IMG/VR virus record: IMGVR_UViG_3300025120_000040
Coordinates: 1-64,000 of that record
DNA from: a virus
DNA: 64,000 bases
Direction: 5' to 3' (one strand)
How positions within the stretch are numbered: the first letter of the stretch is position 1; the number at the start of each line of letters is the position of its first letter. A model generated the notes under the pieces. It ran no database searches. It was given only the letters and a program-made list of their open reading frames with translations, and was not told the DNA's origin. The translations under genes were made by a program, and so were the position numbers. Below, piece after piece: positions 13,647 to 58,426 of this stretch.

Positions 13647-15013
13647 GCGTTTTTACACTCCTCCCAGAATTCTTCCATCTCAGGGAAAGTGTTCAATAAG
13701 TTTGTTTGTCTTCTCCGATCGTGTTCGTTAAAAAATGCGTAAAAATTCTTTTTTTGTTGCGTACTTACGTCCGTGTTTTCTCGCCAGTATGCGAGATTGC
13801 GTTGCATTTTTTGAATCTCGAAGTCCTTGAATATGTGTAACCCGTTGTCCTCCCCGGAATGGTTCTGCATGTACTTAATGTTATCCTCATGTATGCTCTG
13901 GTACGCCTCCGGTAGCATCGTGATCTGTTGCCATGCGGGTTGCCTCAGCAGTGGCACATCGAACCACACTCTCTGGTAGGTCTTTGAGTACTTGGTACGC
14001 AGTTCCAATATTTTCTCCAGCAGTTTATCCATGCTCGTGATACTTAGATTGTTGTATGTGCATATGAATGTGATGGAATTACGACCCGGGATCCTGTCAA
14101 GAAACTCCTCCACGTTGTCCATCATGTAGTTGAAATCCAGGCCGTCACGTATGTACTCCGCACGTTTGCCAAATGCGTCAACTGACACGAACTGCATCAT
14201 GTGTTCAACCTTCTCCTGCATACATATCTCCTGTGCCATGTTGAAGTACTTCTCTTTCAACTTCTTGTCTGGTGGACACATGTTACTGGTCACGTTGAGG
14301 TGCAGATCTTGTTTGGGATGATCTATTATGTACTGGAAAACCTTGTAGGTGTTCACGTCCATCATGGGTTCACCACCGGTCATACGGAAGTGCTTTAAAT
14401 TCTTGTACAGTGTTGGCCACCACTTCCAGAAAGCGGTCACGTAAGGGTTCTCCTCCCTGTTGGGTATGGGCTTCCTGCGACCTTGGAAGTGCTCTGGTGC
14501 GTTGTGGGAAGGGGTGGTAGGATATTCGCCGTATCTGTCCACCTCCTTGGCCCACGTGGTCGAGAACTGTGGTGAACAATAACTGCACTTGAAGTTACAA
14601 GCGTTGTTGAAGTTCACCTCCACGTATCTCGGCGTCCAATGTTCGTCTATTGGATTCTTTCTAATATCCTCGAAGTCCTGCATGGCCCATGGCTCACCAG
14701 ACCTGTAGTGCCTGTCTGACATCTCCCCGGTCTTCTCCATGTTCCAGCAGTATGAACAACCCTCGGGTTGTTCTCCCTGGAGCATCTGTTGTCGTTGATT
14801 CATTTTCTCTGCGGTGTTGTGCAGTGCGGCTGGATTGTTTTTCAACTTCTCTGCATCAATGTTGTGCAATGGTGGATGATAGCAACTGTTGGTCAGTCCC
14901 GTGGGCAGGTGCAGTGAGGTCTGATTCCACTTGGCCAGGCACATGGTAGGAGAAACTGTCTCGAGTATTTCCTTGGCCTTCAATGCGTCCTGTTTGTAGT
15001 TACTGGTACTCAC
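13643..15013 (-). CDS. Radical SAM protein, divergent subfamily (copy 5)
   Basis: 456 residues. The cluster motif CNFKCSYC has Cys139, Cys143 and Cys146, followed by SPQFSTTWA; GGEP is MTGGEPMMD. The N-terminal module reads MCLAKW (Cys25), SCYHP (Cys44) and GCSYCW (Cys86, Cys89), the same pattern as copy 4. GKRAEYIRDGLDFNYM is the late signature. It overlaps copy 4 by an ATGA and the glycosyltransferase-like gene upstream by 14 bases. The DNA appears richer in G and C than copies 2-4 by eye, which might indicate a different age or origin; this was not computed. Confidence 0.85.
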   Translation of the reverse strand: MSTSNYKQDALKAKEILETVSPTMCLAKWNQTSLHLPTGLTNSCYHPPLHNIDAEKLKNNPAALHNTAEKMNQRQQMLQGEQPEGCSYCWNMEKTGEMSDRHYRSGEPWAMQDFEDIRKNPIDEHWTPRYVEVNFNNACNFKCSYCSPQFSTTWAKEVDRYGEYPTTPSHNAPEHFQGRRKPIPNREENPYVTAFWKWWPTLYKNLKHFRMTGGEPMMDVNTYKVFQYIIDHPKQDLHLNVTSNMCPPDKKLKEKYFNMAQEICMQEKVEHMMQFVSVDAFGKRAEYIRDGLDFNYMMDNVEEFLDRIPGRNSITFICTYNNLSITSMDKLLEKILELRTKYSKTYQRVWFDVPLLRQPAWQQITMLPEAYQSIHEDNIKYMQNHSGEDNGLHIFKDFEIQKMQRNLAYWRENTDVSTQQKKNFYAFFNEHDRRRQTNLLNTFPEMEEFWEECKNA

Positions 15014-26268: not shown

Positions 26269-29200
26269 TTATTCAGGTGCGTTTGTTGGTTCGTTAGCAA
26301 TGAATTTAGCCTGTTGAGTGTTTGAAGCCTGTAATCCTTTACCATCCGCTGGATTACCATCTAGTGCCGTGTACCATACCTGTCCTCTCTTGTGTAAGAT
26401 TTTAACCTGTGTTCCCGATGCTGGCACAGTGCTTAAAGTGACTGCTGTTGTGCTTCCGTCCACAGAGTAGTTAATAGTTGATCCATCCTCGCTAGTAAGC
26501 AACAATCGTTGGCCACCAATGAATATGTCTAACTCACTAGCAGAGGCTGGGGTTTGTGATAGTGCAAACGTCAATGTACTGCCGTCACCTGTGAAAGTGT
26601 TGGTGTGTACTGTGTCCGCATAAGGGATGGTTTGAGTACCAGACGCATCTACCACTTCAGTGCCTGATCCATGCTCCTTAATTCCTGTACCAAGTGTTCC
26701 ACGTCTTAATTGTCCCAACGTGTTACTTGATTTTGTAAAATATTCTATTCTCTCTTTGTCTATGAAAATGACACCTGGAGTGTTTGAAGAAGCATCTGGT
26801 ATTGGTAAAACACTTTCGTCTTCCACAGTTATGGTCTGTGTTCCTGCTGTCATATCTACAGTTAATTTTGTTGTTGACGTTTTACTAATACGTTTGTAGA
26901 ACGTCCTGTTCATCATATCTTTGAATATCCTGAATCCTGTGGACCCTGTCGCTGATTCAAGTGCAAAGTACATGACATCTAATCTATCCGATGATGTGAT
27001 AGTCTTGCCCGAAACTGTTATCGTGTTGCCACTTGCTACATAATCTGTTCCTTGTATCAATTGCTCACCATTCAACCAAACAAAAGTGTATCCTGCATGT
27101 AACACATCGAATCTAAGTTTGAATACTCCGCCTGTTCTGCCTTCCAACACTTCTCTTCTCTGTTTCATGCCCAACGCATTATTGAACGTTGTTACACTGA
27201 TGATGTCATTTGCAGTCAAACTGTAAGGAGATGTTATCGCACTTGGTACCAATACTACGTCGTTACCTGAGTTGAAGTACTGATGATCTACCAATGTCGA
27301 TATACAGATTACATCTGTTGTTGTTGGAACAGATGCACTTACGAATTCTATGTTGTTGTTTCCTACATCAACTGTGTAATGTGTGTTCAAATCTTTCTTG
27401 GTTCCGTTGACATAAACTTCAACCTGGCTTGCACTTGAAATTGTTTTGGCTGGATCAACAGTAGAGTCATCGCCTAGTCCTGATACCACACCATATGTGT
27501 AAGTGCTTCCGTCACCAACATAGTAGGTGTTGTCTGGTCCACGTAGTACCCTTCCGTTCACTTCAACCGTTGTCAATCCTGAGAATGGTCCTATCGCACC
27601 AGGTGGATATGTCAACGTGTGTCTGTTAGTCGAACCATCATATGTTATTGATTCATTTCTCACACTGGCATAACTCCTTGTCGATGTTGCTGACTTGTTG
27701 AAACCTGCTATCTGTATGTAAGAACTTGCGGCAGGAGCCGAGTCAAACACAACTGTAATCGTATTAGCAGTAGTGGTTGTTGCGTATGCTGTTGTAGGCA
27801 CGCCATCCACTGTAACATATAAGTCAGATGATGTTGAATCTAGATTGAACTCACCTCTTGTAGAAGTCAAGAACGTAGTGGTACTATCATCTCCAGTGAA
27901 AGTGTTCAATACTCTGTAGTTCTCACCTGAAATGGCAAATACCTTGGTTGATATTGTGCTGTGATTGGCAGGTGCTGTGTCGAATGTAATTGTTTTATTT
28001 GCAACATCAATTGTGTAATCAGATACTGTTGAATCTAATGCACTACCTTTCTGCACCACGCCATTGACTGCAACAGTCACTGACCCTAGTGTGCCAGGAT
28101 AGTCTCCTATGCTGAATGATGTTGTGCTTCCGTTACCTCTGTGATTCATCTCACTTATAAATGGCACACCAGACTCTGGTGATGTGTAAACTTTTATGTC
28201 TAACGTGTCAAACAACTGGCCAGGTACTACCTCTTCTGGTGCATAACTTGTGTCCGGAGAAATAAAATCATCTCCCTCTAATAAGATATCACTAGGTGCG
28301 TGTCCCAGTGCTGATGTGAATAGACCACCTTTAACAATTGAATCTAAGGTTCTGTCATCTGTTGGTGTCAACACACCATCGTCATCGAACGGGATGAACT
28401 CTACCAAAGCGTTCTCTTCTGGTGTCTCGCTGATTGTGAATGATACTGTAGACCCATCACCTCTGATCACGTCTGACAGTTTTTTCCTTGAGCTGTCGTC
28501 CTGTGTTAGATACACTTGATACACTTCACTACTTGTAGGTGCTGTGTCAAATGTGTACGCCGCTGTAGAGCCATCTGCCCTGAAGGCTTTAACTTTTGAA
28601 TCGCCATAGTTGTCCCAAGAGAAATCATACCAACCCGCTTTGTCCCAACCTGCTTCTTGATTGAATAGTAATCCTGTTACCATTGTTCCGCCGTAGTCGA
28701 CTCCTGTCATCACTTGGTCAAGTTCGTTACCTGGCATTCCAGATCCTGGCGTGTAGAAACCCTTTGTTCTGTCCGCCGCGGTAAGTCCGGTCTCATTGCC
28801 GTATATTTTGTATACGCTTCCTATGTTGTCGTCGAAGTCTGTGCTTGACGTAAATGCGTTTGTAACTTTGTAAAGTCCATTGTTGTATCTCAATAGGTCA
28901 TTGTAGGCATAGGCTGTTGATGCCGCCCAGTCCACAACTCTAGAGGTGCTTGATACCCTGTCAAATTTGATCGTTGTATCAAAGTCTCTGACCAAGTCGT
29001 TGTTTAAGTTAGCATATGCTTTAGCAGTGTCTGTTGGTGTTGTACCATCTGTCTTACCGCCCGATAACACAACTGTTGGTGTTGCAGTGTAATTTGCACC
29101 AATACCTGTCACCGTAATTTTTGTTACTGCACCGTCTTGTATAATTGCTGTTGCTGTAGCGGCCGTTGTTGTCGGTGTCACATACATCTTGAATGTTCCA

Positions 29201-32200
29201 ATTTTGTCACCCTGTGCTTCATTTACTGATGCTGTTGGGCCATAGAAAGTTTCTGTGTAACCTTCAAATGTATAATCTTTCGTAGTGCCTGATCCTGAAT
29301 TTTGTGTGTCATAAATCTCGGCCTGTTTTTGACTCGTGAACAACGGATAGTAATACCCAAACTGTCCACTGGTTGATCCTGATGCACTCGTGGCCTGTAA
29401 CTGGAAAGGTCCTGTCGATCCTGTAGTACCTCCGAGTATGCTCACTGTTGGAGCGACTTCATAACCCGAACCGCCTGCTGTGACAGTTATAGTCTGGACA
29501 TACTTCTTGTGGTAGTCATACCACATTTGATACGGATACTCTGTTAATTTGGCAGTATCAGAGTTAACATTCAAACTTCTTATTTTGCCTGTTGCTGTAT
29601 CGTAAAAAGTAGGATTGTCAAAATCTGAGAATATTCCGTCCTGTGTCTCTGTTTTTTCATAGCCCAATTTATATTCTCTCAATTTGGTGTGGAAGGGTTT
29701 TACTTCGTTTATGTAACTCTCTATCCAACTATCAGTGCCTTTGGTGTAAGTTTTTCGTTGATCTAGTTTTCTAACAGAGTTTTTTGCATTTATGAATGAT
29801 GTTTTAAACATCCAGTCTACATATGTTTGCTCTGCAAGTACTTTCCTTAATCCAGTAAAGAACAGTGTGTTGTATTCTCCAGCAAGATCATTAATGAATA
29901 AATCATCTCTCAATGCAGTCAGGACTTTTCTTGTCTCTATACTCGGCTCTTGGTCAAAGAAGTTGTCGTCAAAATTATCATCACCGGCAAAACCTGATGC
30001 ATCCTGTGAATAATCATAAAGTTTAGTGCTGAATCTGATTGTTCCATTCTCTGTTCCAACGTTTGTCCACCCTGTAGCAGTCTTCATAAACAATTTCCAA
30101 CCGCCTGTGTCGGCACTAGTAACTTTTACATGTTTACCTACAGCAAGATCCAGTGAGTCTAACTCGTATTGAAACGTTACCTGTTTATCAATTTTTGTGT
30201 TCTCATCATGGAGCATTCCATGTATAGCAGGATCAGTACCATACCAATCTGTGTAACTCCAGTAAGCGGAAGTGTTGTATGTCTGTAATTTGGTCCTTGT
30301 GAATTCTGTTCCGTCCCATTGGTATATTGCCCAATAGTTGTTCGCTGTCTCATCTGCTTTGACCAAGTACTTCACTGTCCCTGAAAGATCTGCGGTGTTA
30401 AGGTAAGTCAGTTCAGCATATGTGTCTACCGAAACGTCCCACTCTAGGCTCTGTGCTGTTGGCTCCGGTTCCGAACTATCGAGGTTTGTAAGATTTATTT
30501 GTCCAACTAACTGATTTTTTTTCAGTACCGTGTTTGCGTAATCTATTATCTCTGTCAATGCGGCATATCTGTCTACGTACCAGCTCTGCCTAGGCCTGAT
30601 ATTATTACCATATCTCTCATTGAGAGGGAGAGCTAGATCTGGTACTACATCTCCTGTAGAATTTTTTCCTGTCAACGAGTCCCACCAACGTGTCTCAATC
30701 TGCAGTGATGGTCTGAAGTCGGCATCGCCTTCCCTGACTAGTTTCCAAACACTGTGAGAATCACCCTCGAACGTGTTTGTTCTAATATCCATGTTCAGTA
30801 CTGTGTCGTCGTTGGTTAGATTGCTAATGTTATTCAGTATAAATTTATTGGTGTCTGTCACAGAATAATATTTGTAGTCAAATGCTCTAGGGTTTGCAAT
30901 TAGGTTGGCAACAAACGCTACCGTGTTCTTCCTGTGTGTGTTATTCGGCAATGTTGTCTTGCCTTTTACCCAGTAGTAATAGAAGTTAACAAATTTGTCT
31001 AATCTCGAATCATATTTCTGCATCACTGTGTATTGTGAGTCGTCACTCGGTAGTAGTTTTGACTCTACCCATTCATAGACATCTATGCTCGAACCTGGGA
31101 ATGTCTGCCCCCAATGATTCACTTTATATTCCTGTGTGTCTTGCTCGTACCACAGCCATTTCACTGTTGACAGATCCCACCATACTTCACCTATGTGTGT
31201 TTCCGCCCATGGTGTCTTGGTATTTGCATTATCTCCGGTATTGTATACAGCAGGATCCCATGCTGTCTTGATATCTATTTCTCTGTCTGCTAGTCCCAGT
31301 ATCCTACCTTTGATAGGATCGTACAAATCATAGTAGTCTTGTAATTGTTTTGTCTTTTTGTTGAATTCAAAAACTTTGCCCAGTTTGTCTGTGTCCATCA
31401 GTGCTGTTTCCGTCACAAGGTTTTTCCAAGCGTACTCGCCATTTACTGTGAGATCATACTGTGCTACTGACCCGTCGTTGACTATTTTTGTGCTTCCGTC
31501 TGCTGTTGTGTTCCCGTCGTCTGTCGGTGCGCCAACAAATAGAGAGTTATCAATCATACACACACCACGTCCAAAGTCGTCGTTCTCAGACATGTTTGTT
31601 GATGTCATTGTGTCGTCTATAATAAATTTAGTGTTGTACATCGTGGCAGTGAATGCACCTCCGGAATCAGTGTTGTCGTCCACTATAGTAGTGTCTTGTA
31701 AGTCAAACGTGGTCTCACCTGAGTCAAAATTTATTTCTGTTGTACTTGCGAAGTTCTCAGCACCTATCACTAATCTTGTACCATCGTTATTCAAATCAAG
31801 ACTTGTGCCAAACTTCATGTTAGTGCTAGAACTAGGTGCACTTATAGTCTGTTGTAAAGTATATGTGTTTGTGGAATCGTCTGCATTCCATTTGTAGTAA
31901 TAGATAGCACCCGCATCTGGATGTGCTGTGCCGTCAACGCCCGGTGCACCAATTATCAATGTCGTGCCGTCCTTGCTCATTGCTATCGAATCACCAAAAG
32001 CAGTGTTTAAGGATGACCCGTCACTTGCCACACCTGTTATGGTTTGTGCCAGTGCAAAAGAATTCTGTGTACTTCCGTCGTTGCTCTGTGCTGTCTTTAT
32101 GAATATCTCTACCTTGCCTGCGTTGCCAGGTGCTAATGAACTCACAGCAAGGATATCACCGTTGTCGTTCGCGGCTATCCTGTGGCCAAATCTCTGTCCT

Positions 32201-35200
32201 TCGCCACCGTCTGGTGCTTCTATTGTGTAGTCTTGTGTCCAAGTGTCATAGGTAGATCCGTCTGCACCTACTCCCCAAGTGTACAAGTACACTCTACCTC
32301 TGTCAGTGCTGTGTCCAGGTGCTGACACAAATAGATACTTGTCCGGTGTGGTTCTAACTGATGTTGCTCCAGGTTCTGCTACCTTGTGTGCCCAACCAAA
32401 ATTCTGTGATGCCGCGTCAACTGGCGGACTGATTGTGTTCAGTATTCCGTACTTGAATGTGTTTGGATCCCATATGTAAAGTTTGACCAATCCTGAATCG
32501 GAAAATCTTGTACTCCCATCCAAACCTATGGTGTTAGTGTAAGGTGCTCCTGCAACTACAAAGTTTTCATCAGTACTGATTGACAGCGATTCACCAAGTC
32601 TACTGGTGTTGTCATCGTTTTCGGTCATCGTTACTGTTGACTGTGTCTGTACAGTTGTTCCTGCTTCCGTGGAAGATCTAAACAGGAAGTGTACCTCACC
32701 TTGTGCTTTACCTGGTGCAGATGCAATCACTGTCCTTCCATCATTACGTGCCACGATCCTGTGTCCAAACTCCTGTTCCGTTGTGGTGGCGTCTGGTGAT
32801 AGTACTAAAGACGATGTATAAGGGTCTTGCTTCTCATACACCCTCCATAAACCTGAACTGTCTGCATCTGCAAACGCCTTGTCTCCTGGCTGTTCAATTG
32901 CATCATTCTTGTCAGTGTACTGATCGTGTTCCAACAAGTCATTGACATTGTCCATCGACGACAATCTTACTGATATAAATTTGTACAGGTTACCGTAACT
33001 GTCTGCGGTTGACCCATCCTCCAGTGCAGGAATAAATCCTACGTTACCTGAGTAGTCAATGATCACTGTCTTATGGCTTGGTGCAGAGCTAACTTGGTAC
33101 GTACCATTTAGCGTTGCTTCCTCACTGTTTGATATTGCAAAGTAATCGGCTTGTGTTGTTGTTGTGCCTGCACTTAAATTGTGAGACCCTGTGAATGTGA
33201 TCTCTAACTGTGTTGAATCGTTGATCAGTTCTAACGTTGCTATCTTTATGTTAGCACTTGAAACCCTTAGAACGTCCCAATCCTTGTTGCTCTTGCTGGC
33301 CACCCAAACTAGATCATTAGGTCTTATAGCATTTATGTCTATGTCTAATATCTCGTCAATGTTGAATACAGTGTGTTGCACCTGTGTAGGTTGAGGATAT
33401 CCTGCTGTCTTAAAGATCTGTGCTGTGTCTCTGCTCACTCCTTGCTTACTGTAATCTAATCTTTTGAATGTCGTGGATGCTGTGTATTCTACTGGCTTGT
33501 AGTAAAAATTATCTTTTGTAATAGCACTTGATCTCGCATATCCGACTGCGTCTGCCGAACTATCCAATAATTCTATACTTTGTGGGTTCGCTGTAATTTC
33601 TGTATCTTTCAACACTACTTGTACGTTTTCAATAGAATCTGTGTTTCCAAAGTTACCTGTCCTGATCATCCATTCCGGATATAGATCTAAATTAATATCT
33701 TCACCCTCATATTTGGCTTTCAATATTTTGTCTATTGCATTCTGAGTGCCTTTCTCTCTGATGTAACCTTGATAGAACTTGTATTGTGACACATCATTTA
33801 CGAATAAATTTTCCAGATAGTCTCTGCTTTGATACCCTGTTAACCTCTGTGCTAGTTGTTGTTGTGATTCGTCGAAGTTGTTGGTCTCTAGATCGTAGAA
33901 ATCATTAAACTGTGAGATCTTGTATTCAAAGTTAGGAATCAGTTGTGGTGCTGGTTTTTTGTCTTTCAGCGTCCAATTAGCAGTTTCAAAAGTTGCACCT
34001 GAATTATGATTTGTTTTGGCAACATAGAACTTACCTTGGTACTCGACACTGTCTCCAATCCTGTAATCGGTGTTTGCTATCCAATACGTGACCTGTGCGG
34101 CATCAAATACGAAACCAGGAGCATAGTAATCTCCGTTCCACCCTGCGGTCTTCCATCCTACCAACTTCAATCTCTGCTGTCTGAATCCAGTAAATGGATC
34201 GTATATAATATCAGCGAAAACTGTTTTGTTGTCAAACAATAACACATGTTCTTTCTGTACTGTATTCAATGCGATGTTGTAAAGACCCACTGTGTCTGAT
34301 TTAATTCCTAACTCAAATGTCTTACCTATACGTTTGGTTGATATATCACCAATATCGATCTTCCTACCGCCTGAATCTAATATAGAATAATCACCAGATA
34401 AATTACGTAGTTTACCAACTATGCTATTGTTAGTGTCTAGTTCAAATCCGTCCGCGGCCGGTGAAACTGTTACAGCACTGCCTGGCGCCCATTCTTGAGT
34501 TGTCCAGAATAAAAACTCTCGTACTGCGTTTTGCCAATTTAGTGTTTCTTTAATCTCATTTGAAAATTTGTCAAATCGGAATCCTTGACCTTCCAACCAA
34601 TGTCCGTATCCAAACAAGAAATCGGCAACATCCTGTGTTGTGTTAAACACATAACCATATGGTATGGTCTGTGTAGTTTCTTGGTATGCAGTGTACTGTT
34701 CGATCACTAGTGATCCTTTAACAGATACTGCGTTCGCTGTTGTTGTCTTGACAGGATAGTTAAAATTAAAATATGGTTTGGCTGTGCTGTACCCCAACAC
34801 CTTGTAACCACCCAATACCGTTGACCCATCATTGCTGATGTCTGTGTTCTTCTCTATAAGCACACCAGAATACTGGAAACTCTCCACAGGGTTTGATGTC
34901 CTAAACAGTATCTTGTAATTCTCATCTGGAATAAATTTAGATCCGGATGCTGATCCTGGAGACACACTGTCCGTTAGGATCTTTATGTTGTCCTTATCTG
35001 TGAATCCTCCCAACTTGTATGCTAACTGAACACTTAGGTTCTTCATCTTGTTGTAGTAAAAAACCTCAGTGTCTAAGTTCCTCGAAATCAAATAGTTGAG
35101 AACGAAAGGTTGGTACCCTGCCGTTTGATATCTAGTCGTTACACCTGTTGTTAGATCTGTTTCCGTTTCTAAATGATATTTTGCTGTTGCTAATGTTTTC

Positions 35201-38200
35201 CTAATACCTGTGTCTTTATAGATTTGGTTGTTTGAAACATTTGTTGTAAGTCTAGACGGATCAAAAAGATTGGAAAAGAATTTTGCTGGTTTGGTTAGAG
35301 CGAGTAATTTCATTGCAGTAAACGGGAATGAACTGGATCTTCTCCATGCCGTCTCTGCTGGTGCCTGATCACCAAACTTCCAAGAATTCTGCCTTCCTGG
35401 TATATCGAAGTTGTCGACAAGTCCTGCCGCTAATGGATCTAGAAGATTACCTGACGCATCAACGGGTAGGTAATTTCTAATTAGAGGTTTCCCATATCTA
35501 CCTGGCTCTGTCGCAACAGCGTTCCATAACACATCATTGCCCGAAGTATAAGGAGCCGTTCCGTAAGTTGTGTCCCAGTCAGTGGGTTTTTCTGAATGGC
35601 CCAACATCTCCCACGGTCTAATATGTGGAGAATCCGTGTCATAAAAATATTTGTATATACCCCTCCAGTATCCTGGCAGGTTCTCATTTATCAGTCTACC
35701 TTTTGATCTAGCGTAGTTGTACGTAAACGGTGATCCTTCATTGAACGCTGTGTTGTTGATATACTGAACATTGTTACGTCCCGCCCACTGGTAGAAGTCT
35801 GTTCCCATCACGTTGTCAACTTCCTGTAGTGTGTATTCCGTAGATGTAAAAGCACTAGGCAACACATCATGCATATCCACTAAAGTAGCATCGTAGGTAA
35901 CTTTTATATTGTTGTAAATTCTTTTTTCAAGTTCCAATATTAAATCATCACGTTCGTCGCCATACGCTTTTATGATTGATCCATCGTGTTTCCGGATAAC
36001 GGCCGTGTCAGTCAAATAAGTTGTGTCTGTGAATGTCTCAGGAGTGAACCTGGGATACATTCCAAGTTTAGTCGGAGAAGGTGGCATGTAACTGCCCACA
36101 GTGTCGGCATAATCCTTGATTACAATTTTGTCTCCCTCTGCTAATGTTTTACTAATGTTGATACTGTCATCTGTTGTGCTGAAAGTGTAATCTGTTCCTA
36201 GTAATAGTTGAACATCATTGAGGTAAACGTATACTGCCCTGTTGCTTAATGTTGTAATATTGTGTTGCGAGTCTAGTGCATAATCTTTTTGTGACTCACC
36301 CATCACAGTGTATGATCTTGTTGAAACATTTTCTCCCCAACCCACCATATCCTCATAGAAGAACGGGAACGAACTGTTCCTGCCTGGTGTGATTGCTGTG
36401 ATTATCTCATCAACTCTATTAGCGGCGTCTCCTTCGTAAGCCGTACCTGTAGCGTGTGTAAGGAATGCGTTGTACCACTTCTCATACTCCTGATTCACAT
36501 ATTCTGTTGCCGTAACAAAATTGGCTTCCTGATCTATAAGGCCAAATATCGCAGGTAGCAATGGTCCTTCGTGCTGATGTATGCTACCGCCCTTTAATCT
36601 CGCATCTGGTTTATCTCGTAAATTTGAAACTCCAGGAATGGCACCAGTGACATCTTGATTTTTATCAAATATGTCTCGCACATGATTCAGTATCTGTCCA
36701 AAAGTAAATGTGCCCAACTGCTGATTTAGACTGTTAGTTGCCAAGTTCTCCGGTATCTCATATACCCCCTTGTCAGCAATCTTATCAGCACTGCTGTATC
36801 CTGCTATTCTGATCTGTTCGTCAATTTCTAGTGCCTTGTTAAATTTTATGTATTTGTTTTTTGTTCCAGTTTCCAAAGTGTAATCGGTGATCCTGGTTTT
36901 CCTTAATCCGTTTACTGAAACAGACACTTCTAGGTCTGTCAGTTCCGCTGAGTTCTTATAGAAGTCTATAGGGAACAACTGTTTTTCTATCGTATCGACA
37001 GTGAAGGTCCTGATAACACGCTGTTTACTTTCGCTTGTTCTTTTTATCCAAGAACTACGTGAATTATGTGTTGCTCTACCTGTTGTGTAGTGTAAGTGTC
37101 CTTCTGCTAGATTTTTTGTCAGTGTCTTTGCACCACTCTTGTACGTGAATGTTCCTGCTGTGTGATCCGATTCGAAGACTATGTCTCCAACATTGTTAAC
37201 CGTGTTGTACTTGACCTTGATGCCTAACACAGTGTCTGTTGTTGCTGTATCCGATGTAGAGAAAGAGAACACTTTTGCGCCTGCGAAAGTTGAATTAGGA
37301 TATGTTGTGGCATCATCGAACGAAGTATGATCAGTGTCCCACATGCCAAACAACGGCTGTTGGTTTACATCTGTTTTCTGCTGTGCTTCTATAAAAGATT
37401 CTGTTGTGCTGTCATAACGAAAAGTCTTTCCTTGATTTGTTGTACCAAACTCTATGTATATTGAATCGTCACTTGTTGGTGTGGCATCCGATGACTCGGT
37501 CAGGTTGATAACCTGTGTGCTATCTCCCGCGGTCACAAAGTTCACATCATATATCTTATTTTTTACTGTGGGATCTGTGTCAGCCGCGAACACAACTCTC
37601 ATTCCGGTTTGTAGTGACAGTCCGTCAATAATGTACCCTGTCTGTTTAACCACACTACTGAAAGCGTCCGTGGTCACTGTGTCATACAGTGTGACCGATT
37701 TCTTGGCCACCGTTCCGTGATTGTACAGTGCCAACCCTGAATCGAATTCTATTATCGGTCTCTTCGCTCTGTCGTCCTCGTTCAACACCGGAGTGAAACC
37801 ACTCACTTTTGCTGTCTCTTCGATTACAGATCTGTGGAACCATCTGTTGTACCTCGACCATGCGTTCCTGTCAATTGAATCTCTCTTGATGGTTATGTAA
37901 TCCTTGGTTTCTGGTAGGTAGTATGCCTTGGCATATGGTCGTGAATCGTATCCTGCTTGATCATACAGTATCGTAGATTCTGTAGCATAAGTGCCGGGAG
38001 TCATCATGTCCTCGACATCAGTAAGCGTTATGGCATCACCTACGCCCTCTACGTAATATTCCTTGTCCTGATAATCTGTTGCCACTAGAGAATTCGTAAA
38101 TTTGATCTTCATACCGTTGGACAGGTCCAGAGTCCTCAGGCTGTAATTCTTGGTTCCGACTATGTCGTCTTCTACGTTGATTGCCGTTGTGCTAGATGCA

Positions 38201-39066
38201 TCTTTTATCTGTAGTATTCCATACATGGCGTCATGATTGCCACATTGATAATATAAAGTGTCGGGTGCACCTGTTGTTGGCACCGTAAATGTAACTGTAC
38301 CATAGTCCGTACCGTTGTTTGTGACGCCTGTGTCAAAAATAGTCGATGTTGATCCATCCGCTGAAACCTTGTCCTTGTATGGTTCTGTCATTATCCATAA
38401 CGGATGTCCTTTTGCATTTACGTTAAACTTGTAAGTGTTGCCCCTGTAAAGAGTTAGGATAGGATTGTCTTCATTTTCTCTGTGTGTAAAGTTATAGGCA
38501 CCTTGTGCTAGATTCTCTACTGAATATTCCGCTACCGCACTTGGTCCAACTGAATCTATCTCGATCGATCCAGGCCCTTCTGGCATCCAGTAGTACTCTC
38601 TGTAGTTGATTAACTTGTCATAATCAATAGCAGGATTCCAACTATAAACTGTTTCCTTGTTTAATCTGTCATGGTTATTAATCTTACCGCCTAAATATTT
38701 TATTTGGTTGATGTAGTCGTCATATGTTCCTGTGAATTTGACCTGGTCCTCTGGATTTACTGACGTTGTATCTCTATCTGTGTAAGTGACTGTAGGCTCT
38801 AACTGATATGCCATCCTGTCTCTGCTGGTTGCACTTATGTACCTATCGTTGATATCTCTAGTGTAAGCGTCCTGTCTACCTACGTAACCGTCCAGTCTCT
38901 CCAATGAACCTTTCTGTACCAAAGGATCCATAGTGCTTGAAAGGAATCTCTGGTTGGTATCTGTCCTGTAGAAAGCAGGAAGATGCTGTACAGTACGTCT
39001 GTACTCGTTGTTGCCTTGCTTGACTACTTCGTTATTGGTTAAAGAGTTTGTGGGAGTGTCTGCCAT
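26269..39066 (-). CDS. Giant multidomain virion protein, 4265 aa, with cupredoxin-like and FG-GAP domains
   Basis: The gene follows gp6 and precedes the fibres, as do giant virion genes of other marine T4-like phages. Residues 1-160 form an N-terminal domain. Residues about 185-290 look like a cupredoxin with His221, Cys275, His278 and Met281 as possible copper ligands. CBM-like aromatic units such as W-I-A-N-T-D-Y-R-I-G-D-S-V-E-Y occur near the middle. Residues about 2095-2515 carry seven FG-GAP-type blades (FGHRI, LGESL, FGWAH, FGHRI, FGDSI, FGTSL, FGRGV, each with an AP/GA turn). The last third is beta-sandwich-like repeats (DGSTxxFxxS..., V-x-V-N-G). No frameshift was seen. It is probably an adhesive or long side-fibre protein. 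Confidence 0.8.
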   Translation of the reverse strand: MADTPTNSLTNNEVVKQGNNEYRRTVQHLPAFYRTDTNQRFLSSTMDPLVQKGSLERLDGYVGRQDAYTRDINDRYISATSRDRMAYQLEPTVTYTDRDTTSVNPEDQVKFTGTYDDYINQIKYLGGKINNHDRLNKETVYSWNPAIDYDKLINYREYYWMPEGPGSIEIDSVGPSAVAEYSVENLAQGAYNFTHRENEDNPILTLYRGNTYKFNVNAKGHPLWIMTEPYKDKVSADGSTSTIFDTGVTNNGTDYGTVTFTVPTTGAPDTLYYQCGNHDAMYGILQIKDASSTTAINVEDDIVGTKNYSLRTLDLSNGMKIKFTNSLVATDYQDKEYYVEGVGDAITLTDVEDMMTPGTYATESTILYDQAGYDSRPYAKAYYLPETKDYITIKRDSIDRNAWSRYNRWFHRSVIEETAKVSGFTPVLNEDDRAKRPIIEFDSGLALYNHGTVAKKSVTLYDTVTTDAFSSVVKQTGYIIDGLSLQTGMRVVFAADTDPTVKNKIYDVNFVTAGDSTQVINLTESSDATPTSDDSIYIEFGTTNQGKTFRYDSTTESFIEAQQKTDVNQQPLFGMWDTDHTSFDDATTYPNSTFAGAKVFSFSTSDTATTDTVLGIKVKYNTVNNVGDIVFESDHTAGTFTYKSGAKTLTKNLAEGHLHYTTGRATHNSRSSWIKRTSESKQRVIRTFTVDTIEKQLFPIDFYKNSAELTDLEVSVSVNGLRKTRITDYTLETGTKNKYIKFNKALEIDEQIRIAGYSSADKIADKGVYEIPENLATNSLNQQLGTFTFGQILNHVRDIFDKNQDVTGAIPGVSNLRDKPDARLKGGSIHQHEGPLLPAIFGLIDQEANFVTATEYVNQEYEKWYNAFLTHATGTAYEGDAANRVDEIITAITPGRNSSFPFFYEDMVGWGENVSTRSYTVMGESQKDYALDSQHNITTLSNRAVYVYLNDVQLLLGTDYTFSTTDDSINISKTLAEGDKIVIKDYADTVGSYMPPSPTKLGMYPRFTPETFTDTTYLTDTAVIRKHDGSIIKAYGDERDDLILELEKRIYNNIKVTYDATLVDMHDVLPSAFTSTEYTLQEVDNVMGTDFYQWAGRNNVQYINNTAFNEGSPFTYNYARSKGRLINENLPGYWRGIYKYFYDTDSPHIRPWEMLGHSEKPTDWDTTYGTAPYTSGNDVLWNAVATEPGRYGKPLIRNYLPVDASGNLLDPLAAGLVDNFDIPGRQNSWKFGDQAPAETAWRRSSSFPFTAMKLLALTKPAKFFSNLFDPSRLTTNVSNNQIYKDTGIRKTLATAKYHLETETDLTTGVTTRYQTAGYQPFVLNYLISRNLDTEVFYYNKMKNLSVQLAYKLGGFTDKDNIKILTDSVSPGSASGSKFIPDENYKILFRTSNPVESFQYSGVLIEKNTDISNDGSTVLGGYKVLGYSTAKPYFNFNYPVKTTTANAVSVKGSLVIEQYTAYQETTQTIPYGYVFNTTQDVADFLFGYGHWLEGQGFRFDKFSNEIKETLNWQNAVREFLFWTTQEWAPGSAVTVSPAADGFELDTNNSIVGKLRNLSGDYSILDSGGRKIDIGDISTKRIGKTFELGIKSDTVGLYNIALNTVQKEHVLLFDNKTVFADIIYDPFTGFRQQRLKLVGWKTAGWNGDYYAPGFVFDAAQVTYWIANTDYRIGDSVEYQGKFYVAKTNHNSGATFETANWTLKDKKPAPQLIPNFEYKISQFNDFYDLETNNFDESQQQLAQRLTGYQSRDYLENLFVNDVSQYKFYQGYIREKGTQNAIDKILKAKYEGEDINLDLYPEWMIRTGNFGNTDSIENVQVVLKDTEITANPQSIELLDSSADAVGYARSSAITKDNFYYKPVEYTASTTFKRLDYSKQGVSRDTAQIFKTAGYPQPTQVQHTVFNIDEILDIDINAIRPNDLVWVASKSNKDWDVLRVSSANIKIATLELINDSTQLEITFTGSHNLSAGTTTTQADYFAISNSEEATLNGTYQVSSAPSHKTVIIDYSGNVGFIPALEDGSTADSYGNLYKFISVRLSSMDNVNDLLEHDQYTDKNDAIEQPGDKAFADADSSGLWRVYEKQDPYTSSLVLSPDATTTEQEFGHRIVARNDGRTVIASAPGKAQGEVHFLFRSSTEAGTTVQTQSTVTMTENDDNTSRLGESLSISTDENFVVAGAPYTNTIGLDGSTRFSDSGLVKLYIWDPNTFKYGILNTISPPVDAASQNFGWAHKVAEPGATSVRTTPDKYLFVSAPGHSTDRGRVYLYTWGVGADGSTYDTWTQDYTIEAPDGGEGQRFGHRIAANDNGDILAVSSLAPGNAGKVEIFIKTAQSNDGSTQNSFALAQTITGVASDGSSLNTAFGDSIAMSKDGTTLIIGAPGVDGTAHPDAGAIYYYKWNADDSTNTYTLQQTISAPSSSTNMKFGTSLDLNNDGTRLVIGAENFASTTEINFDSGETTFDLQDTTIVDDNTDSGGAFTATMYNTKFIIDDTMTSTNMSENDDFGRGVCMIDNSLFVGAPTDDGNTTADGSTKIVNDGSVAQYDLTVNGEYAWKNLVTETALMDTDKLGKVFEFNKKTKQLQDYYDLYDPIKGRILGLADREIDIKTAWDPAVYNTGDNANTKTPWAETHIGEVWWDLSTVKWLWYEQDTQEYKVNHWGQTFPGSSIDVYEWVESKLLPSDDSQYTVMQKYDSRLDKFVNFYYYWVKGKTTLPNNTHRKNTVAFVANLIANPRAFDYKYYSVTDTNKFILNNISNLTNDDTVLNMDIRTNTFEGDSHSVWKLVREGDADFRPSLQIETRWWDSLTGKNSTGDVVPDLALPLNERYGNNIRPRQSWYVDRYAALTEIIDYANTVLKKNQLVGQINLTNLDSSEPEPTAQSLEWDVSVDTYAELTYLNTADLSGTVKYLVKADETANNYWAIYQWDGTEFTRTKLQTYNTSAYWSYTDWYGTDPAIHGMLHDENTKIDKQVTFQYELDSLDLAVGKHVKVTSADTGGWKLFMKTATGWTNVGTENGTIRFSTKLYDYSQDASGFAGDDNFDDNFFDQEPSIETRKVLTALRDDLFINDLAGEYNTLFFTGLRKVLAEQTYVDWMFKTSFINAKNSVRKLDQRKTYTKGTDSWIESYINEVKPFHTKLREYKLGYEKTETQDGIFSDFDNPTFYDTATGKIRSLNVNSDTAKLTEYPYQMWYDYHKKYVQTITVTAGGSGYEVAPTVSILGGTTGSTGPFQLQATSASGSTSGQFGYYYPLFTSQKQAEIYDTQNSGSGTTKDYTFEGYTETFYGPTASVNEAQGDKIGTFKMYVTPTTTAATATAIIQDGAVTKITVTGIGANYTATPTVVLSGGKTDGTTPTDTAKAYANLNNDLVRDFDTTIKFDRVSSTSRVVDWAASTAYAYNDLLRYNNGLYKVTNAFTSSTDFDDNIGSVYKIYGNETGLTAADRTKGFYTPGSGMPGNELDQVMTGVDYGGTMVTGLLFNQEAGWDKAGWYDFSWDNYGDSKVKAFRADGSTAAYTFDTAPTSSEVYQVYLTQDDSSRKKLSDVIRGDGSTVSFTISETPEENALVEFIPFDDDGVLTPTDDRTLDSIVKGGLFTSALGHAPSDILLEGDDFISPDTSYAPEEVVPGQLFDTLDIKVYTSPESGVPFISEMNHRGNGSTTSFSIGDYPGTLGSVTVAVNGVVQKGSALDSTVSDYTIDVANKTITFDTAPANHSTISTKVFAISGENYRVLNTFTGDDSTTTFLTSTRGEFNLDSTSSDLYVTVDGVPTTAYATTTTANTITVVFDSAPAASSYIQIAGFNKSATSTRSYASVRNESITYDGSTNRHTLTYPPGAIGPFSGLTTVEVNGRVLRGPDNTYYVGDGSTYTYGVVSGLGDDSTVDPAKTISSASQVEVYVNGTKKDLNTHYTVDVGNNNIEFVSASVPTTTDVICISTLVDHQYFNSGNDVVLVPSAITSPYSLTANDIISVTTFNNALGMKQRREVLEGRTGGVFKLRFDVLHAGYTFVWLNGEQLIQGTDYVASGNTITVSGKTITSSDRLDVMYFALESATGSTGFRIFKDMMNRTFYKRISKTSTTKLTVDMTAGTQTITVEDESVLPIPDASSNTPGVIFIDKERIEYFTKSSNTLGQLRRGTLGTGIKEHGSGTEVVDASGTQTIPYADTVHTNTFTGDGSTLTFALSQTPASASELDIFIGGQRLLLTSEDGSTINYSVDGSTTAVTLSTVPASGTQVKILHKRGQVWYTALDGNPADGKGLQASNTQQAKFIANEPTNAPE

Positions 39067-54792: not shown

Positions 54793-54987
54793 ATGTCAAA
54801 TGAAACACATGATGCTATCATGACAGCAATTCAAACTTACTCAGAAGAGAATGGTAAGTTCGTTGATAAGGGCGTGAAAGCCTCTGCAACAAGAGCCAGA
54901 AAGGCCCTAGCAGAATTATCTAAACTGATCAAAGCAAGAAGAAAAGAGATCCAAGAAGTTAAGAATGCGGCTAAAACAGCGGCGTAA
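54793..54987 (+). CDS. Histone-H1-like (Hc1-type) small basic protein
   Basis: 64 residues with AGAAGGAG upstream. The segment KGVKASATRARKALAELSKLIKARRKEIQEVKNAAKTAA is lysine, arginine and alanine rich. It resembles the conserved helix of Hc1/histone H1-like proteins from bacteria and marine phages (A-x-R-A-R-K-A-L-x-E-L-x-K-L). The N-terminus is a short acidic helix. It probably binds DNA and could condense or shield phage or host DNA. A strong terminator follows, so it is a single-gene transcript. Confidence 0.55.
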   Translation: MSNETHDAIMTAIQTYSEENGKFVDKGVKASATRARKALAELSKLIKARRKEIQEVKNAAKTAA

Positions 54988-55010: not shown

Positions 55011-55044
55011 AAACCCTCGGCTTTTACGAGTCGGGGGTTTTTTT
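55011..55044. terminator. Bidirectional rho-independent terminator
   Basis: CCCTCGGCT and AGTCGGGGG form a nine-pair stem with two G-U pairs, flanked by A-rich and T7-rich tracts. It ends the Hc1-like gene in the plus direction. Read the other way it lies right after the stop of the radical SAM gene at 55043, so it can serve both. Confidence 0.8.
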
Positions 55045-56077
55045 ATAAGAGAGAAAAAAGCTCGGGCAGATGATCTGCAAATTTCAATTTACTAAACCTA
55101 TCTTGTCTTTCTAAATTATCCATCATCTTTACCGACGATGACGAGGTCCCTCTCCACTCTACCGTTTTCTTTTTAAAGAACATAGGATTATTTTTTTCAA
55201 CCTCTGTCCCGACATGTTTAGCAAGATTATCGTAAGCAAACTCCGGAGGGTAAGTTACTAGATTCAGTTCTACCTTACGGGGGAGGAGTTTAAAAAGATT
55301 AAGCACGATATCATCGATGTAAAATACGTTCAAGTTGCTAATCGTAACGTATGTCGATAAATGGTCAATTCCAAAATTTTTAATGTACTGTTTGATATTG
55401 TCTCGTACCTGATTCCATTTTGCTGGTTGTCGTATGTATTCAAATATTTTTCCATATCCATCAAGAGAGAAACATATGTTAAACTTTTTAAAACTAGATA
55501 GCAACTCTATCTGCTTCTGTGTCAGTTCCACTGTTCCATTTGTTTGTAAGGAGAATGATTTATCCTTGTCCAGTATCGATAGGTAATTCCATAGTGATGC
55601 AGACTTTAGTGTTTCTCCGCCTATAAACTCTATGTGCTTAATTTTGTGTATATCTTGTACATCAGACGCTTTAATATCTGTTATTACTTTCATGTCTTTG
55701 AATTTCTCGGCTCTAACTTGTGACAGATCAAAATACACATTTTGATATTTCTTCAGCCATGACGTGCTTACCATTGGATTACATGTCACGCAGTAAAGAT
55801 TACACACATTACCAACAGGTATCACTGCCGTACTTACTGACCGTTCCGTCTGTGCTAGATTTTCTTTATATGTTTCGTTGGCTATTTGTCTTTTTGACTT
55901 TATCCCCAATGCCTCTGTTTTCCAACAGCCGTTGCAGAACCTACTTTGGCGATTGTTTCTGTGGTCATCTAATAATTGATCTGTGTCCCTGTCTGCTTTG
56001 AAATCACCTAAAATACAACAAGGCGCATCAAACTGGTAGTCTTGATTTATAAATGGTAGTACACACTTATTCCCCAT
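55043..56077 (-). CDS. Radical SAM protein with N-terminal SPASM/twitch-like domain (copy 7)
   Basis: 344 residues, the smallest of the set. The cluster motif CNLYCVTC has Cys92, Cys96 and Cys99, followed by NPMVSTSW; the GGEP motif reads FIGGETLKS, with Thr for Pro. The N-terminal module is KCVLPF (Cys5), APCC (Cys20-21) and FCNGCW (Cys48, Cys51). GKIFEYIRQPAKW is the signature shared with copies 1 and 6. It ends in the shared terminator and its start overlaps the GIY-YIG gene by 11 bases. Confidence 0.85.
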   Translation of the reverse strand: MGNKCVLPFINQDYQFDAPCCILGDFKADRDTDQLLDDHRNNRQSRFCNGCWKTEALGIKSKRQIANETYKENLAQTERSVSTAVIPVGNVCNLYCVTCNPMVSTSWLKKYQNVYFDLSQVRAEKFKDMKVITDIKASDVQDIHKIKHIEFIGGETLKSASLWNYLSILDKDKSFSLQTNGTVELTQKQIELLSSFKKFNICFSLDGYGKIFEYIRQPAKWNQVRDNIKQYIKNFGIDHLSTYVTISNLNVFYIDDIVLNLFKLLPRKVELNLVTYPPEFAYDNLAKHVGTEVEKNNPMFFKKKTVEWRGTSSSSVKMMDNLERQDRFSKLKFADHLPELFSLL

Positions 56078-56480
56078 TTTTTAATATCCCTTTTCCATGC
56101 ACACGCACACGGATGTGTCCATTGTAGTATTCGTTGGTCTCTAAAACCTTACGTGAAAATTGTTCACGTGCCTCCACGTAGGACAATTCCGATTTGGACT
56201 TGCAGTAGAAAAGTATCTCTCTTGCGAACTTGTCTTTACCAATTTTGTTGACATCGATCGTGAGGTCATCACTGGATCCATAGTAGTCCTGCCAGTCAGA
56301 GTCCACTTTGTACCTACGCTTGTTCTTTCTGCCTTTGAGGGGTGGTCTGGATCTTTTGAATCTCGCAAGTTTCTTGCCTATGTACATCCTGCCGTTGGTT
56401 GTATTCGTTATGAGATACACGAATCCGACTATGTCTTCTGGAATGTTGGTAATTTCTTTTCCTTGGTACGTCCAATGCAT
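56067..56480 (-). CDS. GIY-YIG endonuclease-like protein
   Basis: I chose the ATG at 56480 (MHWTYQGKEI...), because the open frame upstream is low-quality sequence that overlaps the putative RNA. The product has 137 residues. The GIY-YIG motif is present as GFVYLI-N9-MYIGKK, followed by a basic loop (KLARFKRSRPPLKGRKNKRRYK) and the expected later glutamate (YVEAREQFSRKVL). Such proteins in T4-like phages act as free-standing homing or structure-specific nucleases. Its location next to a structured RNA and two radical SAM genes may indicate that it helped move this block. Confidence 0.65.
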   Translation of the reverse strand: MHWTYQGKEITNIPEDIVGFVYLITNTTNGRMYIGKKLARFKRSRPPLKGRKNKRRYKVDSDWQDYYGSSDDLTIDVNKIGKDKFAREILFYCKSKSELSYVEAREQFSRKVLETNEYYNGHIRVRVHGKGILKNGE

Positions 56481-56503
56481 GATGGTATTTAAAGCCAAAA
56501 AGA

Positions 56504-56530
56504 TTGACTCTAAATTAAAACTCATATAAA
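56504..56530 (+). promoter_or_regulatory. Candidate promoter for the structured RNA
   Basis: TTGACT (56504-56509) and TATAAA (56525-56530) are separated by 15 bases, shorter than the optimal 17. It reads into the structured region beginning near 56535. Tentative. Confidence 0.3.
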
Positions 56531-56534
56531 CAAG

Positions 56535-56970
56535 TGCGATAGGCAAACAAAAATTTCTTAAAAATTTCCAACAGGCAAACATAGCATCGCAACCAGTGAG
56601 CAAGGAAATGCGGCTAACAAGCGACAGGTGAATCCTTAGATGCACACAGCAAAAAATGATGGGGCTCTTAGAAAAAGTTAATCCCCAGGTCGACCAAGAA
56701 CTATTATACAAGGGTTTGGTGGACTCGCGTTGTAATGAATGAGCAAATGGGTACAGCACAACCGCCCAACTCCGGTAGCGATGTATAGTGACTGCGAACT
56801 CACCACAGGGTTCAAGTCGGTTCGGCTAGAAATAGCCGAATTGTGACTGCTCATCTACCACAGGGCACGCAATATGCGTGTACCGTTAATTTTTACTTTG
56901 CGTAAGCGTAAATTGAGAAAACGAAACGAGCGTAAGCGAAGTTTCAGATGGCGTAAGCCGTCTCTGACAA
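56535..56970 (+). ncRNA. Putative large structured non-coding RNA
   Basis: This 494-bp gap (56481-56974) has no convincing gene. On the plus strand it holds perfect or near-perfect hairpins: TGCGAT/ATCGCA (56535-56540, 56586-56591) enclosing two AGGCAAACA copies; TGGGG/CCCCA (56660, 56683); TTCGGCTA-GAAA-TAGCCGAA (56821-56840); CACGC-AATAT-GCGTG (56866-56880). Three hairpins capped by GC-GTAA-GC follow, with GCGTAAGC at 56900, 56930 and 56951. A 23-nt element GTGACTGC-N6-ACCACAGGG occurs twice (56788, 56843). All four GNRA loops exist only on the plus strand, so that strand is probably the RNA. I do not recognise tmRNA, RNase P or an intron core. Confidence 0.55.
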
Positions 56971-56974
56971 TCAA

Positions 56975-57295
56975 CTATTCGTTGTCTTCTGGCTTTTCTG
57001 ATGTGTCGGATTGTTCTATTGTGGAATCGTCATGTATGCCACGGATTTTTTGCAGTGCTTCCTCTAGCAGTTTGTCCTTGGTCTCCAACCTGGCCTTCAG
57101 CTCTGCTATCACCTTGTTCTGATCACCTATCTTGTGTCCCAGACTCTGCACGTCTGCCGTGGAGTGTTCCAGTTTGATCAGAACCTGCTTGTTCCGACTA
57201 TCCTTGGATTTCATTTTCTCCAAGGCATCATCACGGTCTTTTGTGATTTCTACGATTGCTGATTTGAGTTCTTTGACTAGGTCTTTTTCGGACAT
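56975..57295 (-). CDS. Coiled-coil protein, 106 aa
   Basis: The sequence is a nearly continuous heptad-rich helix from SEKDLVKELKSAIVEITKDRDDALEKM to ELKARLETKDKLLEEALQKI, with many Lys, Glu, Asp and Leu and no Cys. It ends in an acidic tail (EQSDTSEKPEDNE). It probably dimerises and may be a scaffold or tail-assembly helper, because it is downstream of the gp26-like genes on the same strand. No family is recognised. Its stop is only a few bases from the end of the structured RNA on the other strand. Confidence 0.6.
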   Translation of the reverse strand: MSEKDLVKELKSAIVEITKDRDDALEKMKSKDSRNKQVLIKLEHSTADVQSLGHKIGDQNKVIAELKARLETKDKLLEEALQKIRGIHDDSTIEQSDTSEKPEDNE

Positions 57296-57347: not shown

Positions 57348-57578
57348 TTAGAAGAAAGGTTGACCGCTTTTTTTAGTAGTTTCCATGTTCTCTTTTACCA
57401 GTTGTGCTACCACACCACGTTCCTCCGGCGAAAGATTAAGTGCTTCCTGCCAGGTGATGCCGCCACGCATGAACCAACACACTTTCATTGTTTCGAGTTT
57501 GAGATTCTTGACTTCGTTGTCGAAGTCCTTTAGGTAGGAAACAATTTCAGAGTTCCCCTTTGTCAGTAGCGTTACCCG
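57348..57578 (-). CDS. -1 frame extension of the gp26-like protein, 76 aa
   Basis: This frame is open from a TGA just upstream of the slippery site to 57348 and encodes well-formed protein sequence (NSEIVSYLKDFDNEVKNLKLE, MKVCWFMRGGITWQEALNL). No ATG, GTG or TTG occurs before residue 31 of the extension, and that ATG has no ribosome site. A -1 slip at 57578-57584 would fuse it to the 283 residues before it, giving about 359. T4-like phages encode small hub-assembly proteins such as gp51 nearby; this could be that counterpart. Alternatively, it may be a 46-residue protein starting at the internal ATG. Confidence 0.6.
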   Translation of the reverse strand, partial: RVTLLTKGNSEIVSYLKDFDNEVKNLKLETMKVCWFMRGGITWQEALNLSPEERGVVAQLVKENMETTKKSGQPFF

Positions 57579-58426
57579 AAAAAATTTGAGCTGTCAAATG
57601 TCACCGGTACTTCGAACGAAGTTGGTGCACCCTTCTTGATCTGATCTTCTGTGGTCTTGAGTTTCAACGGTGGTATCTGTGCTTGTACCCTTAACTCGGA
57701 AAGTTTTTCCTGTATCTCCGTCACTGTCTTTGCATCTGCATTGTTGCAGAATTCGATAATCTGTGCTCTGTCCACCACGGTGTTACCTTCCGGTGTTGTG
57801 ATGGTTTTGATCGAATCGACCAATAGTGAGAAGTTGACCATGTTCAGGGTTTGGAAACTTTTTGCGAATGCCGACTGCTTTGCCTCATCGGTCATTGTGC
57901 TGTTGTCTATTGTTCCGTACATCTTCTGTTGCTCGAACCTTGCAATCTGTATCTTGGTAAGTGATTTATATGTCAGCGGTTCTATTTTGATCTTGAATTT
58001 TGTTGAAGTCGTGGTCTCATCCACTATTTCGGTCCTGCCGAGATCTTCCAGCAGTGCGGGTAGGTTGATAGTGTGTGATTGCTCCTCATTGGTCACCGGC
58101 ACACGATAGTTCACATCCATGGTCTCACCGTAGGTCGCGATCCTGATCGCCAGCAACACAGCATCCGTGTCGTAGTTCACCATCTTCCATGGGTCTAACA
58201 TGTTAGGCACACAGCTCTTGATAACATCCACTGTGGATTGCCCGTTGATCATGGCGTCTGGTGTTTTGAATGCTAACTCGTCCTTCACAGTCATTGGCAG
58301 GATTGGTATCTCACCTGTCTCTGTGGGAGTGAATGCCTCCTTGGGATAGTATCTGCCACCACTGGGCAACTTGATGTATATGGCCGGTTGCCTGTAGTAC
58401 TTCTGTAATGGGTTAGTATTTTCCAT
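57572..58426 (-). CDS. 26: Baseplate hub assembly protein gp26-like
   Basis: 284 residues. It resembles the T4 gp26-type baseplate/tail-assembly family, seen in YYRQPAIYIKLPSGGRYYP, then EIPILPMTVKDELAFKTPDAMINGQSTVDVIKSCVPNM and AVLLAIRIATYGETMDVNYRV. The family has a helper role in hub or tail assembly and does not normally remain in the virion. The tape-measure gene is divergent, and this neighbourhood resembles tail-assembly chaperone loci. The late promoter at 58472-58479 drives it. The last two codons before the stop form a slippery heptamer. Confidence 0.7.
   Translation of the reverse strand: MENTNPLQKYYRQPAIYIKLPSGGRYYPKEAFTPTETGEIPILPMTVKDELAFKTPDAMINGQSTVDVIKSCVPNMLDPWKMVNYDTDAVLLAIRIATYGETMDVNYRVPVTNEEQSHTINLPALLEDLGRTEIVDETTTSTKFKIKIEPLTYKSLTKIQIARFEQQKMYGTIDNSTMTDEAKQSAFAKSFQTLNMVNFSLLVDSIKTITTPEGNTVVDRAQIIEFCNNADAKTVTEIQEKLSELRVQAQIPPLKLKTTEDQIKKGAPTSFEVPVTFDSSNFFG
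57578..57584 (-). promoter_or_regulatory. Candidate -1 ribosomal slippery heptamer
   Basis: The minus strand reads T TTT TTC in the zero frame, an X XXY YYZ heptamer of the U-UUU-UUC type, one codon (GGG) before the stop. AAATTTT just upstream also fits. The -1 frame continues for 76 codons. No strong downstream stem was seen. Confidence 0.6.

Follow-up and report, generated by a model that had tools for sequence, protein, structure and literature searches.

The stretch of DNA analysed here, 64,000 nucleotides of the IMG/VR virus record IMGVR_UViG_3300025120_000040 and hereafter called the window, contains a gap of 494 bp at 56481-56974 that holds no gene, and the question this locus raises is what occupies it. 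The gap lies between a divergent minus-strand gene for a SegE-like GIY-YIG endonuclease (56067..56477; PF19835, E = 5.5e-36) and a 106-aa gene, also on the minus strand (56975-57295), with the T4 baseplate hub gene (57572..58426, minus strand; PF12322/phrog_150) marking the far boundary of the locus. A sequence-only reading had described the gap as gene-free and rich in plus-strand stems, and this description was borne out by rereading the letters, which located the hairpins as they had been listed, by shuffling and by a test for reading frames. The fold of the plus strand is better than that of dinucleotide-shuffled sequences (z = −3.6, with none of 100 shuffles equally good), whereas that of the minus strand is not (z = −1.4), and the consensus index is 1.34 for the plus strand versus 1.26 for the minus strand. 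No conserved reading frame was found among 75 homologues, where any of the six frames stays open for more than 300 nt in only 0 to 2 sequences and, of 870 indel runs, just 13% have a length divisible by three. On these sequence grounds the gap is judged to be real and noncoding, with a structured RNA on its plus strand.

A DNA element such as a replication origin, a packaging site or a recombination site might merely resemble an RNA. The gap has recombination genes (gp46/47, nuclease) on one side and structural genes on the other, and a hairpin in it is flanked by direct repeats, both of which are compatible with such an element. However, about 190 of the paired cells conserved on the plus strand in 39 core sequences are G-U pairs, whose opposite-strand counterparts would be A-C, and this argues that the plus strand has been selected as RNA. 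Together with the better folding of the plus strand, it makes a DNA element a very unlikely explanation.

The sequence belongs to a sizeable family. Exact 18-mers from the 5′ and 3′ parts of the RNA are present in 75 and 54 IMG/VR contigs, respectively, and its signature hairpin, described below, in at least 120. Profile searches recovered the RNA in 179 of the fetched loci, and a later count gave 374 fetched loci matching it, some loci in both counts lying on the same contig. Subfamily I, the type found in the window, comprises 96 distinct full-length sequences with identities to the window down to 50%; clustering at 96% identity left the 75 that were used for counts of reading frames, GNRA loops and terminators. 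In contigs with more distant baseplate proteins (L027-L030), the gap at the same place holds subfamily II, whose 5′-part motif matched at least 120 contigs and whose profile matched 124 loci with 69 distinct full-length sequences. Three loci (L133, L152 and L222) combine the 5′ domain of subfamily II with the signature hairpin of subfamily I, a mixture that joins the 2 subfamilies, and both have in common a 3′ module made of motif A, a hairpin, UGACU and motif B. Matches of the exact 18-mer in bacterial and archaeal genomes included a single true copy, whose contig (L202) had been binned into a Pelagibacter MAG, and the other five loci had no family match by profile search. BLASTN of the RNA and the signature hairpin against named phages returned chance matches only, and no description of the RNA was found in open-access papers; a subscription journal may contain one. 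Judged by its sequences, this is a family of mostly marine T4-like phages, with hundreds of members at one genome address.

The conserved fold was assessed in a core alignment of 39 sequences, with covariation scored per predicted pair cell. Standard pairs are formed in 94% of these cells, and two-sided changes occur in 238 of them compared with 62.7 in shuffles. The covariation score was 0.543 and fell to at most 0.110 when partners were slid by 1 to 3 columns; because these sequences also contributed to deriving the structure, the comparison is biased towards the unslid version, but the two-sided counts do not depend solely on that. When substitutions were replayed along a tree as a null, five pairs reached E <0.05, all of them Watson-Crick or G-U. 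The helices thus covary beyond both the shuffles and the slid controls. Absence of covariation, or a clear match to a known ORF or RNA family, had been named as outcomes that would count against a structured RNA, and neither occurred.

The family model (nhmmer) covers 56485-56965 on the plus strand. The predicted fold includes a 5′ domain (56584..56643) with an outer stem (56584-56588:56639-56643) and an inner stem (56602-56606:56633-56637), each showing two-sided change at 3 of 5 pairs. Next comes hairpin H2 (56660..56687; stem 56660-56664:56683-56687), which has changed on both sides at 4 of 5 pairs with 95% of its cells paired, and then H3 (56688..56725), whose 11-bp stem (56688-56698:56715-56725) shows two-sided change at 10 of 11 pairs. 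The H3 loop (56702-56710) is predicted to form a 9-bp pseudoknot with 56782-56790, supported by two-sided change at 6 of 9 pairs and by pairing in 92% to 96% of cells. A second pseudoknot is possible between GUUG (56729-56732) and CAAC (56759-56762); this pairing is complementary in 39 of 39 sequences and, being invariant, lies outside the reach of covariation, so that it is a candidate only. The signature hairpin H5, GGGUACAGCACAACCGCCC (56748..56768), has a loop that is invariant in all 39 core sequences, while its closing pair varies among CG, UA, GC and AU and has changed on both sides in 16. Hairpin H6 (56818..56843) is the GAAA-capped hairpin of the sequence-only reading and was confirmed: 4 of its 11 pairs show two-sided change, and the loop is GNRA in 68 of 75 homologues, with several variants, as expected of a putative tertiary contact.

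The ends of the RNA can be placed from elements that resemble a promoter and a terminator. The conserved block begins near 56485 with a promoter-like stretch, and within it a sigma70-like motif consists of TTGACT (56504-56509), a spacer of 15 nt and TATAAA (56525-56530) on the plus strand. The TTGACY/TATAWA pair is conserved ahead of the RNA at a similar distance in most homologues, its spacer being short, 15 nt, in many members. A promoter score of at least 10 was reached by 70% of 124 homologous upstream regions versus 9% of shuffles, the former figure being inflated by relatedness among the sequences. At the other end, after motif B, lies a terminator-like hairpin (GCACGCA-ATA-TGCGTGT) with a U-rich tail (56865..56895, plus strand), a type of element present in 42 of 75 homologues where 2.2 would be expected from shuffles. 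Stricter consensus scans of the window for promoters and terminators found none. With the promoter-like pair ahead and the terminator-like hairpin behind, the mature RNA probably starts near 56537 and ends near 56895 on the plus strand, a length of about 350 nt.

This placement bears on three further hairpins that had been counted as part of the structured RNA. Their GCGTAAGC loops, at about 56900-56907, 56930-56937 and 56950-56959, are present in the sequence, and the second and third hairpins (GAAAC..GTTTC and AGATGGC..GCCGTCT, 56923..56963) covary, with two-sided change at 5 of 5 and 4 of 8 pairs; the first is not clearly kept. All three lie downstream of the likely terminator and so are probably outside the RNA core. 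On the minus strand the first of the two covarying tail hairpins (GAAAC..GTTTC) has a short U-rich tail beside the stop of the 106-aa gene, and it may end the transcript of that gene. A further minus-strand feature is a conserved TTTAAATA at 56485-56495, just ahead of the GIY-YIG start codon, which resembles a T4 late promoter.

The direct repeats flanking H6 offer the most specific hint of what the RNA may do. Motif A (CACCACAG, 56801..56808) and motif B (TACCACAG, 56856..56863), both on the plus strand, co-evolve as identical copies of each other: their identity over distinct pairs is 0.94 versus 0.72 when permuted, with a maximum of 0.81 in 5000 permutations, and columns 56802 and 56803 covary with 56857 and 56858, respectively. 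Subfamily II behaves likewise (columns 354-411, identity 0.98). The motifs change rapidly among relatives, reading CCACAGG, CATGATG, CGTGATG or GCACATG. No complementary partner of either motif was found inside the RNA, and no exact complement of CCACAGGG was found in the window. The simplest reading of this pattern would be a partner acting in trans that is touched twice; short-tract gene conversion may alternatively account for the co-evolution.

Such a partner could be a protein, if the RNA acted as a sponge or a polymerase modulator in the manner of CsrB or 6S RNA and its two motifs bound one protein twice. A GNRA hairpin with two identical single-stranded motifs next to it would suit this role, as would the early expression suggested by the promoter, but a protein site that changes so quickly among relatives would be unusual and the 6S and Csr RNA models gave no match, leaving a protein-binding RNA possible though on the doubtful side. 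The fast and joint change of motifs A and B tips the balance somewhat towards a nucleic acid over a protein as the partner. The repeats and the GNRA hairpin could instead act between copies of the RNA itself, in a large RNA-only assembly of the GOLLD, ROOL or OLE type that forms homo-oligomers by loop contacts. We regard this as unlikely, since intermolecular pairing normally leads to complementary, not identical, co-evolving motifs, since the RNA has no sequence or structure match to the Rfam models of these classes, and since it is shorter than GOLLD and ROOL. What speaks for such an assembly is that the RNA is large, pseudoknotted, GNRA-rich and phage-encoded, with two identical motifs, and that GOLLD, ROOL and OLE do form homo-oligomers (PMC12286853).

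The surroundings of the RNA bear on whether it could serve a particular neighbouring gene. The recurring gene order is gp47, gp46, a small gene, a nuclease, the RNA, one or more variable genes, the baseplate hub, a tail protein and the portal; in the window the neighbours of the RNA encode GIY-YIG, radical SAM and baseplate proteins. A search with the GIY-YIG protein alone found the RNA within about 1.5 kb in 45 of the 51 contigs with enough upstream DNA, and in two of the other six (L403, the contig of L083, and L411, the contig of L047) it lies farther off behind inserted genes. Genes downstream of the RNA differ among relatives while the RNA stays. Many relatives do have a plus-strand gene (cluster C4) starting shortly after the tail hairpins, as a riboswitch-like cis-regulatory leader of the next plus-strand gene would require. 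A riboswitch or other leader was rejected, however, because no same-strand downstream gene is conserved, both gene and strand being variable; the gene that follows in the window runs the opposite way, the first long plus-strand gene begins no earlier than 58510, and the terminator-like hairpin closes the RNA. We consider a leader distinctly improbable.

The nuclease is usually of the SegE-like GIY-YIG type. In most of subfamily I its gene runs opposite to the RNA; in subfamily II and the L188 group the two share a strand. This habitual neighbour could suggest that the RNA is itself mobile, either intron-like or associated with the endonuclease, and travels with the GIY-YIG gene. Yet where a PDDEXK/RusA-like resolvase replaces GIY-YIG (L128, L130 and L136) the RNA remains, and it is kept at one locus across relatives whose baseplate proteins are only about 34% to 43% identical. 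A group I or II intron was likewise rejected, there being no match to intron models and the RNA lying between genes of differing strand without interrupting any. The constancy of the RNA while its neighbours change argues against both a leader and an endonuclease-borne element, and for the latter only a slender chance is left. In subfamily II, where the RNA lies downstream of the GIY-YIG gene on the same strand, it could be processed from the GIY-YIG transcript.

Several other genes of the window deserve mention. A 64-aa protein of the histone H1-like Hc1 family (54793-54987; PF07432) adjoins gp46 in many relatives, and a radical SAM-like ORF at 55043-56077 has a weak PF04055 match below the curated cut-off. 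Farther away, adjacent ORFs at 8597-15013 resemble radical SAM proteins by eye (CxxxCxxC-type motifs), and a single ORF at 26269-39066 encodes a giant protein of 4265 aa among structural genes.

By portal protein, the closest cultured relatives are Phosso, Atu_ph07, PA5oct and the RaK2 group, and several of these carry, at this locus, a large gap without annotation. The RaK2 group (CBB, 121Q and GAP32) and PA5oct resemble the marine phages in the position of this locus between gp46/resolvase and the baseplate hub, in its similar length and in a sigma70-like promoter recognised by eye. The RaK2-group element, conserved in 41 records, yields a consensus fold; its neighbours differ in RaK2 and XaC1, which implies that it can move as a unit. 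Nevertheless, the similarity of the RaK2, PA5oct, Phosso and Atu_ph07 gaps to the marine RNA was not significant by profile, covariance model or pairwise tests: the RaK2-group element showed weak pairwise similarity only, PA5oct gave the best match in the 194 kb searched, suggestive and at the right place but with a non-significant E of 3.5, and the Atu_ph07 gap contains ORF-like sequence by eye. The RaK2-group element itself is about 480 nt long (L206-L217, for example L206:15911-16696) and unannotated, with promoter-like and terminator-like sequences by eye and, in several records, small hypothetical ORFs annotated within it. The large PA5oct gap (L205:14456-15968, Pseudomonas phage) has a perfect TTGACA-17-TATAAT promoter, and one stretch of it resembles H2 of the marine RNA. 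A separate repeated hairpin, TATACGGTNTAGCGTATATT..AATATACGGTNTAGCGTATA, is present at three places: the variable loop of one subfamily II RNA (L030:8043-8098), a Schitoviridae roseophage (L348:1501-1558) and the tRNA cluster of a Caulobacter phage (L349:1501-1547); the matches of L030 in Schitoviridae and Caulobacter phages are confined to this variable hairpin and were rejected as homologues.

We favour, with a probability of roughly three in four, the reading that this is a stand-alone gene for a trans-acting noncoding RNA of T4-like, mostly marine phages. Host RNA polymerase would transcribe it early from its own sigma70-type promoter, and the transcript of about 350 nt would end at the intrinsic terminator and act in trans. 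The pseudoknotted core would serve as a rigid scaffold, with the GNRA hairpin making a tertiary contact, and between them they would position the identical motifs to contact the same partner twice. Candidate partners are an RNA of the phage or host, or else DNA engaged in recombination-dependent replication, a process whose genes adjoin the RNA. Two-site recognition of a nucleic acid is put forward only tentatively. Bolder still, and improbable on present evidence, is the idea of a hallmark RNA of a broad T4-like lineage, from marine to RaK2- and PA5oct-like jumbo phages, that sits beside recombination genes and uses two fast-evolving, guide-like motifs to target nucleic acid in trans; several of the RaK2-group and PA5oct-type phages with an element at this address infect laboratory bacteria, which makes a positional counterpart directly testable. 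The RNA is kept in hundreds of marine phage contigs despite drift to 50% identity, swapped neighbours and little spare room in the genome, and is probably an important tool of these phages. Few RNA classes this large and complex are known, and most of the understood ones have important roles.

How the RNA relates to these classes was examined with Rfam covariance models. The search that the sequence-only reading had proposed gave no relevant match in the window at the gathering threshold or at E up to 10, the permissive search returning two irrelevant sub-threshold matches only, and both settings gave nothing relevant on relatives and PA5oct. That reading had offered two branches. A diverged GOLLD- or HEARO-like RNA is disfavoured, with no Rfam match up to E of 10, no adjacent IscB and no tRNA, whereas the covariation, the pseudoknot, the retained GNRA loop and the hundreds of homologues, along with the lack of an Rfam match, lend strong support to a new, tertiary-folding phage RNA. 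Membership of GOLLD, ROOL, OLE or HEARO was rejected for want of a covariance-model match in the window or its relatives. GOLLD and ROOL occur in phages, and GOLLD commonly has a tRNA embedded or adjacent; ARAGORN found no tRNA or tmRNA in the window, which also speaks against GOLLD. HEARO, the omega RNA of IscB, resembles the present RNA as a structured RNA close to a nuclease gene, but here the neighbour is a GIY-YIG nuclease or PDDEXK resolvase instead of IscB, and membership was rejected on this ground too. The manA and wcaG motifs are structured RNAs of T4-like cyanophages and mostly leaders of metabolic genes (PMC2864571). The present RNA is like them a structured RNA of marine T4-like phages found in metagenomes, but it lacks a constant gene downstream, and their Rfam models do not recognise it. 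With GOLLD, ROOL and OLE it shares the character of a large, ornate RNA discovered through comparative genomics, theirs containing pseudoknots or kissing loops as well as A-minor contacts (structure in PMC12286853), and it differs from them in its architecture and its fixed T4-type locus. Relative to Rfam 15, the named-phage collection and open-access papers, its sequences almost certainly define a real new RNA class.
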